The notes under the pieces: model-generated
Told to the model about the DNA's origin: nothing
The model's input: the letters and a program-made list of their open reading frames with translations, nothing else
Databases searched by the model: none
Shown: piece by piece, positions 6,596 to 23,334 of the stretch
Numbering within the stretch: position 1 is the stretch's first letter
Layout: every line of letters starts with the position of its first letter
Program-made: the position numbers and the translations under genes
Assembly: GCA_016786585.1 (NCBI GenBank)
Contig: JAEUUI010000008.1
Location: 310,001-374,000, forward strand
From: Cyclobacteriaceae bacterium
GTDB lineage: Bacteria > Bacteroidota > Bacteroidia > Cytophagales > Cyclobacteriaceae
Reading direction: 5' to 3'
DNA length: 64,000 nucleotides

Positions 6596-7084
6596 ATGCT
6601 GGATTTCAAAAATGTCTATCAGAATATGCCCGAACAAATAGCTGAAGGGATCAAATCTCTTTGGGCAGACGAGGGCGCGTTGTCGGACGCTGAGTCGATG
6701 CAAAAGCGGTTACAGGAAGTTGTTTATGTTGCTGTTGATCCGGCAACGGGAAGTGTTGCGGCCGTTTCCACCGCGATCAAGAAAAAGGTACATGCGCTCA
6801 ATGGTAAATTCCTGTATGAGTTTCGCTGCTATATCGGGGAAGCATTTCGTATCGCAGGCCTTGATGTCAAGCTTTCGCGGCTCACATTTGATTTTCTGGA
6901 ACAGCTCGCATCCGCGGATGTGGACCAGCCAATCGGAATTTTTGCAATTCTCGGAAACGACTACCTGAAAGATCAGCCGTTATGGAGGCGGGCCGTATGG
7001 CCGGAAATAGAAATGTATTTTATTGGCTATAACAAAAACGGTGACCCCATCCGGGTACATTACTTCACCGGTGCACGCATTTAA
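6596..7084 (+). CDS. Small acyltransferase-like protein, paralogue A
   Basis: The 162-residue protein is not a family I can name. It aligns by eye with the protein at 7330-7848: both have EVV.A, VAAVSTA/VVAVSTA, a Y.FRC strand, a FR.xGL or YRVxGL turn, and an ending of the form RV.YF..A. The order of strand, FRC strand and R-x-x-G-L loop followed by a helix resembles the acetyl-CoA-binding core of GNAT acyltransferases, which is inference. No signal peptide or membrane segment is present. It overlaps the tail of the convergent acyl carrier protein gene by 4 nt, which hints at an acyl-ACP substrate. Confidence 0.55.
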   Translation: MLDFKNVYQNMPEQIAEGIKSLWADEGALSDAESMQKRLQEVVYVAVDPATGSVAAVSTAIKKKVHALNGKFLYEFRCYIGEAFRIAGLDVKLSRLTFDFLEQLASADVDQPIGIFAILGNDYLKDQPLWRRAVWPEIEMYFIGYNKNGDPIRVHYFTGARI

Positions 7085-7329
7085 GATTGCTGAAGAATGG
7101 ATTTACAAAACAATCGTAACGTTGGATTCTCCCAGAAAATGATCGGACTGATTGATATTCCGAGCCGGTCTTCAAGCTCGTCCAGCAACTGCATGGCGTG
7201 GATTGAATTGAGCCGCAGATCTTCAAAGTTTGCATCAATGCCGATGGATTCGGGTGCAATGCCCATCATCATGCCAAGCTCTTCGCGACAAAAGTTAATC
7301 AGCTGTTCTTCAGTAAACGATTTAGCCAT
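7081..7329 (-). CDS. Acyl carrier protein-like, atypical LNS site
   Basis: The 82-residue protein has the length and helical pattern of an acyl or peptidyl carrier protein. The presumed phosphopantetheine Ser42 sits in DLRLNSIHAMQLL, where the usual Gly-x-Asp-Ser is Arg-Leu-Asn-Ser. Longer frames exist upstream, but Met at 7329 begins the domain exactly. That start codon directly abuts the ATG of the divergent gene at 7330 (CATATG), so no intergenic base is left. The 3' end overlaps the gene at 6596-7084 by 4 nt. It is probably the second carrier of the surrounding cluster; Asn for Asp may change which PPTase or partner recognises it. Confidence 0.75.
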   Translation of the reverse strand: MAKSFTEEQLINFCREELGMMMGIAPESIGIDANFEDLRLNSIHAMQLLDELEDRLGISISPIIFWENPTLRLFCKSILQQS

Positions 7330-7848
7330 ATGAGTCAGCGCAGGGAAGGTACAAAACCGCAGTTGGTTTTTGAAAACGTTTGGAAAAAGAATGATCCGGT
7401 TTGGCATTCGAAAGTGCAACAACTCTGGAAGAAAAACTTTCCGGCCATGCCGCAGCAAACGTTAACGCAACGCGTTCACGAGGTTGTGTTTGCGATAACA
7501 ACTACCGAAGGAGAGGTGGTTGCTGTTTCGACCGCATACAAGACTTATGTTGAACAACTTAAGAATCACTTGTATGGATTCCGGTGCTTCGTAGATCCAG
7601 CGTACCGGGTTCCAGGCCTGACGACTAAAATACTCGTGGAAACGCGTAACTGGCTTGAGGAGATACATCAGACTGATGGAACAGAAACTGATCGCTGCAT
7701 TGGTGTGATAACCATGGTGGAGAATGAGCGGCTGGCGAAGTATCGCAACGAGGCAATCTGGCGTGGTTCAGGAATGGTTTATATCGGAAATACTCCGCAA
7801 GGCAAGCATCTGCGGGTGTACTATTTTAAGAAAGCACTTATCGGATAG
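7330..7848 (+). CDS. Small acyltransferase-like protein, paralogue B
   Basis: The 172-residue protein is a distant paralogue of the protein at 6596-7084. It keeps EVVFAI, GEVVAVSTA, LYGFRCFV and the loop DPAYRVPGLTTKI, which looks like the V-x-P-x-Y-R-x-x-G-L turn before the CoA-binding helix of GNAT enzymes. It ends with MVYIG and RVYYF. It is cytosolic by appearance. Its start abuts the divergent ACP gene and its end overlaps the convergent P450 gene by 11 nt. A role in moving an acyl group to or from the neighbouring carrier proteins is inferred from context only. Confidence 0.55.
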   Translation: MSQRREGTKPQLVFENVWKKNDPVWHSKVQQLWKKNFPAMPQQTLTQRVHEVVFAITTTEGEVVAVSTAYKTYVEQLKNHLYGFRCFVDPAYRVPGLTTKILVETRNWLEEIHQTDGTETDRCIGVITMVENERLAKYRNEAIWRGSGMVYIGNTPQGKHLRVYYFKKALIG

Positions 7849-20780: not shown

Positions 20781-21245
20781 TCAGGAAAGGTTCAGATTCC
20801 GATCGAGGCTCTCCTCCAGAGAGATCATCGTCTCGGTTCGCTCAATCCCATCAACTTGCTGCATCTTGTCGTGAAGCACCTCTTTTAGGTGATTGGTATC
20901 CCGGCAGTGGATTTTAACAAACATGGAGTAGTTGCCGGTTGTATAGTGAATACTCGTAATCTCCTGAATCTCCTTGAGCTTGGCCACTACTTTGTCGTAC
21001 AACGCGCTCTTTTCCAGGAAGATGCCTATGAACGCGGTAATGTCGTAGCCTAGCTTCGCGTAATTGAGCTTTAATGTGGTTTTTTCGACAATTCCGGCTT
21101 CCTCTAGTTTGGTCATCCTTACGTGTACGGTTCCCTGTGAAACATTTACCCTGCGGGCAACCTCCGTATACGGTTTTTTAGCGTCATCCCTCAAAATCTC
21201 CAGGATTTTCAGGTCAGTATTGTCAATTTCATAATTTTTGGCCAT
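20781..21245 (-). CDS. Lrp/AsnC family transcriptional regulator
   Basis: The 154-residue protein has an N-terminal winged helix (ILRDDAKKPYTEVARRVNVSQGTV, residues about 16-40) and a C-terminal RAM domain that binds small ligands, usually amino acids, and forms octamers. The recognition helix is near residues 30-40. It could regulate itself, and the AT-rich upstream DNA holds a repeated AATATT near 21288-21304. Whether it controls the suf operon downstream is unknown. Confidence 0.93.
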   Translation of the reverse strand: MAKNYEIDNTDLKILEILRDDAKKPYTEVARRVNVSQGTVHVRMTKLEEAGIVEKTTLKLNYAKLGYDITAFIGIFLEKSALYDKVVAKLKEIQEITSIHYTTGNYSMFVKIHCRDTNHLKEVLHDKMQQVDGIERTETMISLEESLDRNLNLS

Positions 21246-21322
21246 TTCCCGATACTTTTTTTGAGCTTTTGATGATTGAAAGCCAATAATATTAAATAAT
21301 ATTCAAATTTTAATGACATTAC

Positions 21323-21354
21323 TTGAAATGTATAGCAGTCATACGTTTACTTTG
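21323..21354 (+). promoter_or_regulatory. Promoter of the tRNA-like RNA gene
   Basis: A TTG at 21323-21325 (-33) and TTACTTTG at 21347-21354 (one mismatch to TAnnTTTG at -7) are separated by 21 nt, inside the 17-23 nt range known for Bacteroidota. This would start transcription close to 21358-21361, about 10 nt before the cloverleaf. Confidence 0.5.
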
Positions 21355-21369
21355 TTGAAGTTATTATAA

Positions 21370-21529
21370 TGTAAGGTGTTGAAACTGGCAGACAAGCCCT
21401 CCTGTCTCGGGGGTGGAGAGTCAAGGATAAACGCAGAATAAGCCCCCGACTTGTCGGGGACTGGGGTTGACCACCACAGTATGTTCTGTAGCTAACTTCT
21501 CCGTGGAGGTTCGAAGCCTTCCCTTACAG
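21370..21529 (+). ncRNA. Class II tRNA-like RNA with expanded variable arm
   Basis: All tRNA arms can be folded. The acceptor is a perfect 7 bp (TGTAAGG 21370-21376 with CCTTACA 21522-21528). The D arm is TTG/CAA around an 11-nt loop AAACTGGCAGA with the conserved GG. The anticodon stem is CCCTC/GGGGG with loop CTGTCTC, placing GTC at the anticodon position after T33. The T arm is GGAGG-TTCGAAG-CCTTC. The D arm looks like tRNA-Leu. The variable region is about 90 nt (21414-21504): an outer GGAGAG/CTTCTCC stem, GTCAA/TTGAC pairing, and a hairpin CCCCGA-CTTG-TCGGGG. The anticodon (Asp) does not fit a class II tRNA, base 37 is T, the discriminator is G and no CCA is encoded. It is unlikely to be an ordinary translating tRNA; a decayed tRNA-Leu is the alternative. 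Confidence 0.65.
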
Positions 21530-21561
21530 CAAGTTTAGGTTAGTACAGTTAAAAAAAGTGC

Positions 21562-21598
21562 AAAGTCATCCCTACCGGAGGGATGACTTTTTGTTTTT
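21562..21598 (+). terminator. Strong rho-independent terminator
   Basis: A perfect 12-bp stem (21562-21573 with 21579-21590, AAAGTCATCCCT) with loop ACCGG is followed by TTGTTTTT. It ends the tRNA-like RNA transcript and insulates fadD. Confidence 0.9.
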
Positions 21599-21663
21599 CC
21601 GAAAAACAGTAATGAACAATCGTTTGTTATCTTCACACCTTAAGAGTTCTAATTATCTGTGTG

Positions 21664-23334
21664 ATGGCAAACTATCCCTGGATCAAAAATTATCCTGAAG
21701 GCATTCCTGCCGAGATCAAGCTATATGAATACGAGTCAGTTGCTGACCTGTTCGAAAAAAGCTGTGCGAGATTCAAAGACCGGGTAGCGTTTGAAAACAT
21801 GGGCGTTACCATGACGTACGCGGAAGTTGACCGGCTCTCGCGAGACTTTGCAGCATACTTGCAAAGCATCGGCATGAAGAAAGGTGATCGCATAGCCATT
21901 CAAATGCCTAACCTGTTGCAGTTTCCGGTTGCTTTTTTCGGAGCCCTGCGCGCAGGATTAACGGTTGTGAACACTAATCCGCTTTACACTCCACGAGAGA
22001 TGGAGCACCAATTTAAAGACAGTGGTGCAAAAGCAATTGTGATCGTAGAAAACTTTGCGAACAGTCTCGAGAAGATTATTAAGCATACTGCAATCGAACA
22101 TATCATCGTTACAAAAATCGGTGATATGATTCCTGGTCTGAAAGGCTGGATCACAAACTTTGTTGTTAAGAATATCAAAAAGATGGTGCCTGCATATCAT
22201 CTCGAAAAAACAATTTCCTTTAACGACACACTGACGAAAGGCGCTACACTGAAATTTACAAAGCCGGTCATCGCCCTGGAGGATAATGCTGTCCTGCAAT
22301 ACACGGGCGGAACAACCGGTATCGCGAAGGGAGCCCAGCTCTCACACGCAAACATTGTAGCGCATAACTCCATGATTACGCAATGGTTTAAGCCGTACCT
22401 GAAGCAGCAGGTTTCGGAAGAGATTATAATTACCGCCATTCCGATGTACCACATTTTTGCACTCACGGTAAATGGTGTGTTGATGTTTTCGGTGGGAGCA
22501 AAAAGTGTATTGATTACAAACCCGCGTGATATTCCGGGATTCTGCAAAGAATTGAAGAAGCATAAGTTCACGATCATCACCGGGGTGAATACATTGTTTA
22601 ACGGATTGATGAACAATGATTCGTTCGCAAAACTCGACTTCTCCAACTTAAAGGGAGCCGTGGGTGGCGGTATGGCCGTTCAGGACGTTGTCGCAAAAAA
22701 ATGGGAACAAGTTACGGGCAAACCGTTGGTGGAAGGTTACGGATTAAGTGAGACCTCGCCCGTGTTGTGTTGTAATCCGCTTGACGGAACACACCGCCTG
22801 GGAACGATCGGACTACCGATGCCGAGTACGGAAGTTGCCATCTTCGATGATGCCGGTAATCAATTGCCGCAAGGCGAACGCGGTGAGATTTGCGCACGCG
22901 GTCCGCAGGTGATGAAGGGCTATTGGGAAAAAGATAACGAAGGTGTGTTTTTTGAAGGCGGCTGGTTTAAAACCGGTGACATTGGTATGATGGATACTGA
23001 TGGCTTCTTTAAGATCGTTGACCGGAAGAAGGACATGATTAAAGTTTCGGGCTTCAATGTGTTCCCGAATGAAATCGAGAACGTAGCGGCCGGTCATCCG
23101 AAGGTACTTGAAGTAGCGGCCATCGGGGTGCCCGATGAAAAATCAGGTGAGGCGATCAAGCTGTTTGTAATCAAGCGTGATCAATCCCTTACGGAGGATG
23201 AATTGAAAAAATACCTCCATGAGAATCTGACAAATTATAAAGTACCTAAATACGTAGTGTTCCGTACCGAATTACCGAAAACAAACGTAGGAAAAATCCT
23301 CAGGCGTGCTTTGAAAGAAGAAGAGGTGAAGTGA
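21664..23334 (+). CDS. fadD: Long-chain fatty acid-CoA ligase
   Basis: The 556-residue enzyme activates fatty acids to acyl-CoA through an acyl-adenylate. The AMP-binding loop YTGGTTGIAKGA is near residue 215, followed by GYGLSETSP near 360 and WFKTGDIG and DRKKDMIKVSG near 440-460. A C-terminal NVGKILRR holds the conserved Lys. I prefer the ATG at 21664 over the GTG at 21661. It is probably transcribed alone or with the next gene (31-nt gap). It would supply acyl-CoA for beta-oxidation, of which the thiolase at 49146 could be part. Confidence 0.92.
   Translation: MANYPWIKNYPEGIPAEIKLYEYESVADLFEKSCARFKDRVAFENMGVTMTYAEVDRLSRDFAAYLQSIGMKKGDRIAIQMPNLLQFPVAFFGALRAGLTVVNTNPLYTPREMEHQFKDSGAKAIVIVENFANSLEKIIKHTAIEHIIVTKIGDMIPGLKGWITNFVVKNIKKMVPAYHLEKTISFNDTLTKGATLKFTKPVIALEDNAVLQYTGGTTGIAKGAQLSHANIVAHNSMITQWFKPYLKQQVSEEIIITAIPMYHIFALTVNGVLMFSVGAKSVLITNPRDIPGFCKELKKHKFTIITGVNTLFNGLMNNDSFAKLDFSNLKGAVGGGMAVQDVVAKKWEQVTGKPLVEGYGLSETSPVLCCNPLDGTHRLGTIGLPMPSTEVAIFDDAGNQLPQGERGEICARGPQVMKGYWEKDNEGVFFEGGWFKTGDIGMMDTDGFFKIVDRKKDMIKVSGFNVFPNEIENVAAGHPKVLEVAAIGVPDEKSGEAIKLFVIKRDQSLTEDELKKYLHENLTNYKVPKYVVFRTELPKTNVGKILRRALKEEEVK

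Follow-up and report, generated by a model that had tools for sequence, protein, structure and literature searches.

The RNA gene and its structure

What a tRNA-shaped RNA might do for a bacterium when it joins the anticodon GUC to a variable region of 91 nucleotides is the question raised by one locus in the window, the 64-kb stretch of DNA analyzed here. The gene for this RNA, corresponding to tRNA positions 1 to 73, occupies positions 21370..21529 of the forward strand; it was delimited by covariation and by a match to model R1 (21369-21530, 150.3 bits), the only R1 match in the 64-kb window. C74 is encoded at 21530, and the rest of the CCA end is not encoded. The cloverleaf described in the earlier note, with a 7-bp acceptor, a D arm, an anticodon stem, T33 and the T-loop motif TTCGAAG, could be located part by part in the sequence: the acceptor stem TGTAAGG/CCTTACA (21370-21376/21522-21528), in which U1 pairs with A72 (21528); the class-II D arm with its stem at 21379-21381/21393-21395; the anticodon arm (21397..21413) with the stem halves CCCTC (21397-21401) and GGGGG (21409-21413) around the loop CTGTCTC (21402-21408); and the T arm GGAGG-TTCGAAG-CCTTC (21505..21521; stem 21505-21509/21517-21521). 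The peculiarities listed in the same note are likewise present, namely GTC in the anticodon position (21404-21406, preceded by T33 at 21403), T37 (21407) next to C38 (21408), the discriminator G73 (21529), and a variable region of about 90 nt, which pair counts and the alignment place at 21414..21504.

Within the variable region, three stems (21415-21418/21499-21502, 21423-21425/21496-21498, and 21434-21438/21484-21488) and a single pair (21432-21491, from pair counts in the 33-copy alignment) are found, together with a GGGUUGACCAC element at about 21463-21473 that appears in the alignment. The arm also contains a conserved internal loop, GAUAAA/CUAA (21427-21432 and 21491-21496), the closing pair of which switches between C-G and G-C (22 vs. 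9 of 33 copies); this loop may be a protein-binding or tertiary-contact site.

Folding of the single sequence was uninformative; the folding energy is unremarkable (z of -0.56, or -1.51 with the terminator included), and the minimum-energy fold contains neither a standard D arm nor 7-nt anticodon and T loops. The case for the structure therefore rests on the comparison of relatives. A DNA search of 99 relatives yielded two strongly conserved blocks (acceptor/D/anticodon and T arm/acceptor) separated by a middle part of varying length, and tandem arrays of copies in several genomes. The structure scored in 33 aligned relatives comprised the acceptor, D and anticodon stems, two variable-arm stems, one C-G/G-C pair, a distal stem, and the T stem; 97.8% of the cells in the cloverleaf and variable-arm stems were paired, a percentage that none of 500 shuffles reached, and controls slid by 1-3 columns were 52-62% paired. 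The search for covariation suggested in the earlier note thus has a clear outcome, since compensatory changes were found, with two-sided changes at 17 of the 33 base pairs; the replacement of U30-G40 by U-A in 4 of 33 copies also fixes the register of the anticodon arm. The tRNA-like RNA is a real, widespread gene.

It adds a family that Rfam misses and that ARAGORN misses in its long form. ARAGORN did not call the long-form RNA in the window; Rfam 15, searched with window positions 20800-22200 at E-values up to 10, returned weak matches, all below the gathering threshold, and RNA copies in nine other loci gave no Rfam family match. Elsewhere in the window, ARAGORN reported a tRNA-SeC at 7192-7275, inside an acyl-carrier-protein-like ORF on the reverse strand (7081-7458), which is probably a false call.

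Transcription signals and neighboring genes

The promoter-like pair before the gene and the 12-bp hairpin with T's behind it, both part of the original description, are present in the sequence. The former (21323..21354, forward strand) consists of TTG (21323-21325) and TACTTTG (21348-21354), the latter being one letter short of the TAnnTTTG that, with an upstream TTG, makes up the Bacteroidetes promoter type. Exact TAnnTTTG occurs at -45 to -12 in 51 of 167 host copies, compared to a mean of 4.7 and a maximum of 12 in 200 letter shuffles. The terminator-like element, a 12-bp hairpin followed by a T run on the forward strand (21562..21594, from the fold), has counterparts after 115 of 168 host copies, whereas a single shuffle left 9 of 168.

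The promoter of the RNA lies inside an intergenic region between divergent genes (21246..21369), which presumably also holds the promoter of the upstream neighbor. Profile matches identify this neighbor (20781..21245, reverse strand) as an AsnC-type regulator of the Lrp/AsnC family: it scores 166.9 bits with the NCBIfam AsnC profile, below the curated cut-off of 227, vs. 51.3 bits with Lrp; it matches Pfam AsnC_trans_reg, and among solved structures it comes closest to E. coli AsnC (2cg4, E-value 8e-36). In E. coli, AsnC controls the asparagine synthetase AsnA. A divergent AsnC-type regulator stands beside the RNA in 47 of 60 and in 60 of 119 loci of two locus sets, of which the first includes six loci that repeat others and the second draws partly on the same contigs as the first. 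It is the most constant neighbor of the RNA, always upstream, on the opposite strand, and 112-239 bp away. Among 113 viral loci with an RNA copy, no AsnC-type regulator was found within 500 bp. The downstream neighbor in the window, a gene for a fadD-type long-chain acyl-CoA ligase (21661..23334, forward strand), is conserved in part of the relatives only; fadD and sufB adjoin the RNA in part of its loci, and the ligase probably stands outside the RNA system.

Identity bases

The strong aspartate determinants named in passages of a review (PMC9976931) are G73, G34, U35, C36, and C38; GatCAB recognizes U1-A72, according to excerpts of PMC4206432. The tRNA-like RNA contains this entire set for aspartate charging along with U1-A72, so that letters read by AspRS are joined in one molecule to the base pair read by GatCAB. 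U1-A72 and G73 each occur in 94 of 94 scored copies; over 95 copies, U35, C36, U37, and C38 are invariant (95/95), G34 occurs in 91, and U33 in 90. These 95 copies include 62 from loci chosen by a core pattern that fixes the anticodon arm, and 33 that were not chosen in this way (L031-L060). The latter 33 copies, whose discovery left the anticodon free, show U1-A72, G73, U35, C36, U37, and C38 throughout (33/33 each), G34 in 30, and U33 in 29. Another unanchored set, A1, has the loop CTGTCTC in 30 of 33 copies, and U1-A72 and G73 in all 33. Base -1, opposite G73, is C, U, or A.

U37 is as constant in phage copies (55/55) as it is in the host copies; to our knowledge, a pyrimidine at position 37 is foreign to decoding tRNAs. 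Since U33 is kept in most host copies, the non-decoding character of the RNA would rest mainly on U37. The genome to which the window belongs offers a comparison through 28 tRNA rows, obtained from 30 of its 34 tRNA loci: its ordinary tRNA-Asp has G1-C72 and the loop CUGUCAC, among the tRNAs that were read completely, U is the first base in tRNA-Asn and tRNA-Gln alone, and the genome has its own separate tRNA-Asn with U1-A72. Charging by SerRS or LeuRS was considered as well, given the class-II arm and the proximity of tRNA-Ser in phage loci; SerRS and LeuRS do not read the anticodon, and neither enzyme would account for its being conserved.

Distribution in the Bacteroidota

Genomes were counted as RNA-positive when they contained a match of at least 80 bits with model R1, using Infernal with stricter filters for the relatives and the phylum sample; weaker R1 matches did not exceed 68 bits, spanned about 75-90 nt, and mostly resembled ordinary tRNA-Leu. 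Of the 99 relatives, 76 gave full-length matches, and G074, in which a contig end truncates the copy, brings the number to 77. In a sample of 395 genomes taken from the phylum, 40 gave such matches; over these two samples, which share eight genomes, the total is 110 RNA-positive Bacteroidota genomes. The matches listed include Dyadobacter, Spirosoma, Algoriphagus, Cyclobacterium, Echinicola, Flammeovirga, Marivirga, and Portibacter. A search of plasmids with the window copy gave no match.

Some genomes show departures from the usual form. A compact version of 78 nt with few bases of variable loop (67.6 bits) occurs in G072 (L339:1338-1415, reverse strand); it has U1-A72, G73, and the loop CUAUCUC, its genome also encodes AsnA, and it was left out of the 110-genome recount. 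In L027 (genome G093) and in L120 (Flammeovirga), tandem arrays of five to six copies repeat at a near-constant spacing of about 190 bp. Two copies in L026 (1610-1743 and 1790-1923, reverse strand) have a palindromic stretch in place of the end of the D arm and the 5' anticodon stem; they are probably broken copies beside intact ones.

GatCAB and asparagine synthetases in the same genomes

The prediction put to the genomes was that those carrying the RNA depend on GatCAB and can dispense with asparagine synthetase; GatB served as a proxy for GatCAB. GatB is present in all 110 RNA-positive genomes, and E. coli-type AsnB in one of them. Among the relatives, GatB accompanies the RNA in each of the 76 RNA-positive genomes, and the nine that lack GatB are all RNA-negative. 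For the same class, the phylum sample contributes 82 genomes with listed results (8 of 28 genomes without an R1 match were left out): 23 have the RNA and GatB, none has the RNA only, three have GatB only (G139, G249, G294), and 56 have neither. The corresponding numbers for AsnB are none with both, 23 with the RNA only, 51 with AsnB only, and 8 with neither. By genus, the RNA occurs in 16 and AsnB in 21 of 42 genera, without overlap; over the whole phylum sample, 40 RNA-positive and 65 AsnB-positive genomes have none in common, and among the seven relatives with AsnB a single one (G046) has the RNA. Fisher tests gave p-values from 2e-17 to 5e-4, ignoring relatedness. In the rest of the phylum sample, beyond this class, genomes with GatB but not the RNA are common; GatB thus looks necessary but not sufficient. 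Exchanges between the RNA and AsnB occur inside families: family f1 consists mostly of RNA genomes, and G030 and G058 have AsnB without GatB and the RNA; family f23 has seven RNA genomes next to three with AsnB (G100, G218, G450).

Of the 99 relatives, 96 encode AsnRS; GlnRS was looked for in 18 RNA-positive genomes and turned up in 13, including the window's own. With both enzymes present, a genome does not require GatCAB for the usual formation of Asn-tRNA or of Gln-tRNA. In two of the relatives (G057 and G065), the RNA, GatB, AsnRS, and GlnRS occur together, without a match to AsnA, AsnB, or TIGR01536 at the thresholds used. AsnA or AsnB is present in 7 of 77 RNA-positive relatives (G019, G020, G034, G046, G047, G069, G089); the AsnA counts cover the relatives only. 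As a caveat on the absence of asparagine synthetase, most relatives encode a member of the broad asparagine-synthase family TIGR01536, with matches in 94 of 99 (89 over the cut-off); the window's genome has two, including a 631-aa ORF. The TIGR01536 proteins of about 630 aa may be other amidotransferases. The family is too broad to show that asparagine synthetase is missing, and for this reason AsnA and E. coli-type AsnB were used. Nine relatives (ten before G074 proved positive) have GatB but none of the RNA, AsnA, and AsnB; two of them are incomplete assemblies (G012, G092), one is in 1,300 contigs (G053), and two are small genomes (G081, G096), and the other four are G013, G061, G062, and G066.

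Copies in phages

A pattern scan located the core of the RNA in 88 viral contigs, free phages and integrated ones being counted together. Model R1 was applied to 80 of them; 79 score at least 83 bits, including L232, which is truncated on the 3' side; the remaining copy (L252) is a fragment of 48 nt on the edge of its contig. A second pattern, with the D arm but with the anticodon unfixed, adds 38 viral loci; in some of these forms the variable arm has the size usual for class-II tRNAs, and ARAGORN calls five short ones tRNA-Asp (L270, L272, L274, L276, L285). In 55 phage copies obtained with the D-arm pattern, whose anticodon arms were located by requiring TCT at positions 35-37, which all 55 contain, 18 distinct anticodon arms occur, 17 of them with all five stem pairs standard. 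Positions 34-38 read GUCUC in 53 of these 55 copies, and U33 is kept in 44 and lost in 11. The stems thus vary around a fixed loop: in the loop it is the letters that are conserved, and in the stem the shape.

Of 88 viral loci, 48 have a tRNA or tmRNA within 1 kb; the nearest such gene is tRNA-Ser in 19 of the 48 (L180, L185, L220, L228, L230, L242, and L245 among them), a count uncorrected for phage kinship. A phage copy has a single weak counterpart among annotated phages (72.9% over 51%). A second kind of tRNA-like phage gene, with the constant ends TAGTCAGGTG...GGTTCGAATCCTGTCCTGACTAC, inserts that are unrelated to one another, and no anticodon arm that they visibly share, emerged from a scan of 126 viral loci: L195 (4930-8060, reverse strand) has six copies, L260 four, L198 and L254 two each, and L255 and L259 one each.

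Proposed function and alternative explanations

It is likely that the RNA serves as a dedicated carrier, probably a non-decoding one, which AspRS charges with aspartate and on which GatCAB converts aspartate to asparagine, under the control of AsnC. Present in many environmental bacteria and in some of their viruses, it would take over the task of an enzyme that appears to be missing from most of these bacteria. AspRS would attach aspartate by way of G34-U35-C36, C38, and G73, and GatCAB would read U1-A72 and amidate the RNA-bound aspartate. U37, together with the non-U at position 33 of some phage copies, would make the RNA a poor decoder of aspartate codons, so that asparagine would not be misplaced in proteins. 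Asparagine would then be released, a step for which we know of no enzyme, and AsnRS would charge the ordinary tRNA-Asn. The variable arm may serve to exclude the RNA from the ribosome, or it may act as a scaffold for both enzymes; the divergent AsnC-type regulator would tie transcription of the RNA to the asparagine supply. Since the aspartate anticodon and discriminator are placed on a separate RNA, an ordinary AspRS could serve for the charging. Against this reading, the RNA lacks G1-C72, which in bacterial tRNA-Asp helps the E. coli AspRS according to part of PMC9976931; its huge variable arm might also hinder AspRS.

The origin of asparagine in those Bacteroidota that have AsnRS, GlnRS, and GatCAB, but neither AsnA nor E. 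coli-type AsnB, would find a testable answer in such a carrier: knockout of the RNA is predicted to produce an asparagine auxotroph. The RNA would be specialized as a biosynthetic carrier without decoding, equipped with a fitting regulator, and its function would provide a reason for its presence in phages. In a wider sense, we regard it as reasonably likely that the RNA represents a class of RNA cofactors, tRNA-derived and non-decoding makers of a free amino acid, that have been swapped with AsnB more than once in the Bacteroidota and are carried by phages together with tRNAs.

Part of this evidence would also accommodate a regulatory role, in which asparagine is made on the ordinary tRNA-Asn by a non-discriminating AspRS and GatCAB, and the RNA regulates this route; it might, for instance, be an AsnC-controlled competitor for AspRS or GatCAB. 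The same gene pattern would be expected, the U1-A72 pair of the genome's own tRNA-Asn fits, and a section of PMC4206432 puts the tRNA-Asn route forward as a possibility in genera that encode AsnRS, GlnRS, and GatCAB but no asparagine synthetase, the Bacteroidetes included. Two observations make this explanation unlikely: it does not account for the full aspartate identity set in the RNA, nor for the absence, within the class, of a majority of genomes with GatB and without the RNA and AsnB. A decoy for tRNA-targeting toxins or defense nucleases, or a substitute for the tRNAs that they target, kept by hosts and phages alike, would be compatible with carriage by phages and with an anticodon loop that persists while the stems vary; with U1-A72, the AsnC-type neighbor, and the GatB/AsnB pattern all unexplained, we consider such a role very improbable. 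The earlier note had offered a regulatory or decoy tRNA mimic as one of its two readings. The mimic is borne out by the structure, the promoter- and terminator-like signals, and the phage copies; the regulatory or decoy role fits less well than a metabolic carrier, given that the RNA combines identity bases for aspartate with those for GatCAB and is distributed in opposition to AsnB.

The GUC anticodon and the aspartate identity, the five short phage forms called tRNA-Asp, and the many phage copies near tRNA genes could also suggest a minor class-II isoacceptor of tRNA-Asp that reads GAC and GAU and is carried by phages as a help to translation. This possibility is equally remote, since U37 occurs in every counted copy, U33 is lost in a fifth of the counted phage copies (11/55), U1-A72 takes the place of G1-C72, and the same genome already has an ordinary tRNA-Asp; the link with GatB and against AsnB would not be expected either. 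The other reading of the earlier note, a decaying tRNA-Leu with an inserted repeat, to which an attachment site of mobile elements may be added, could draw on the Leu-like D arm and on tandem, degenerate copies in some genomes, such as the two palindromic copies in L026. It can practically be dismissed: compensatory changes, an invariant acceptor end and other constant bases, a near-invariant loop across many genera and phages, and full-length phage copies contradict decay. The earlier note held that relatives with an ordinary tRNA-Leu at this site would mark the RNA as a degraded tRNA; in 119 loci that carry the RNA, ARAGORN found a tRNA in 9, and none of these was tRNA-Leu.

Comparison with known systems

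A full-text literature search, with subscription journals and bioRxiv preprints mostly outside its coverage, returned no description of such an RNA. It is best filed under tRNA-dependent asparagine synthesis, as a variant with a separate carrier. The known route, in which a non-discriminating AspRS and GatCAB act on tRNA-Asn, is recorded in the available text of PMC4206432 for Deinococcus, Thermus, Bdellovibrio, and S. aureus. As far as this account goes, the proposed route resembles it in using an RNA with U1-A72 and the attachment of aspartate followed by amidation by GatCAB, and in occurring in genomes with AsnRS and GatCAB, usually without AsnA and AsnB; it differs in its separate RNA, which has an aspartate anticodon (GUC, not the GUU of tRNA-Asn) and discriminator and is probably non-decoding. 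The RNA shares G34, U35, C36, C38, G73, and G2-C71 with tRNA-Asp; unlike a decoding tRNA-Asp, it has U37 where a purine would stand, U1-A72 in place of G1-C72, and a class-II body with a giant, structured variable arm.

The allo-tRNAs, described in part of PMC7609411 as having 8/4 and 9/3 acceptor and T stems and very diverse anticodons, some of them GUC, are similar in their long variable arm, in G73, and at times in GUC; in contrast to that description, the present RNA has a 7-bp acceptor and a 5-bp T stem (7/5), and its aspartate loop is nearly fixed. With tRNA-Leu it shares the D arm and the general class-II plan, and tRNA-Leu genes are the next-best R1 matches; yet it has G73 and a GUC loop in place of A73 and a Leu anticodon, and a variable arm of 60-110 nt with conserved stems of its own. 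The cell-wall tRNA-Gly of S. aureus stays close to the normal isoacceptor and donates its amino acid to peptidoglycan. This tRNA, an example of the non-proteinogenic tRNAs noted in a portion of PMC8007984, is comparable to the RNA described here as a tRNA specialized for a job outside translation; the job proposed here, in contrast, is that of making the amino acid itself.
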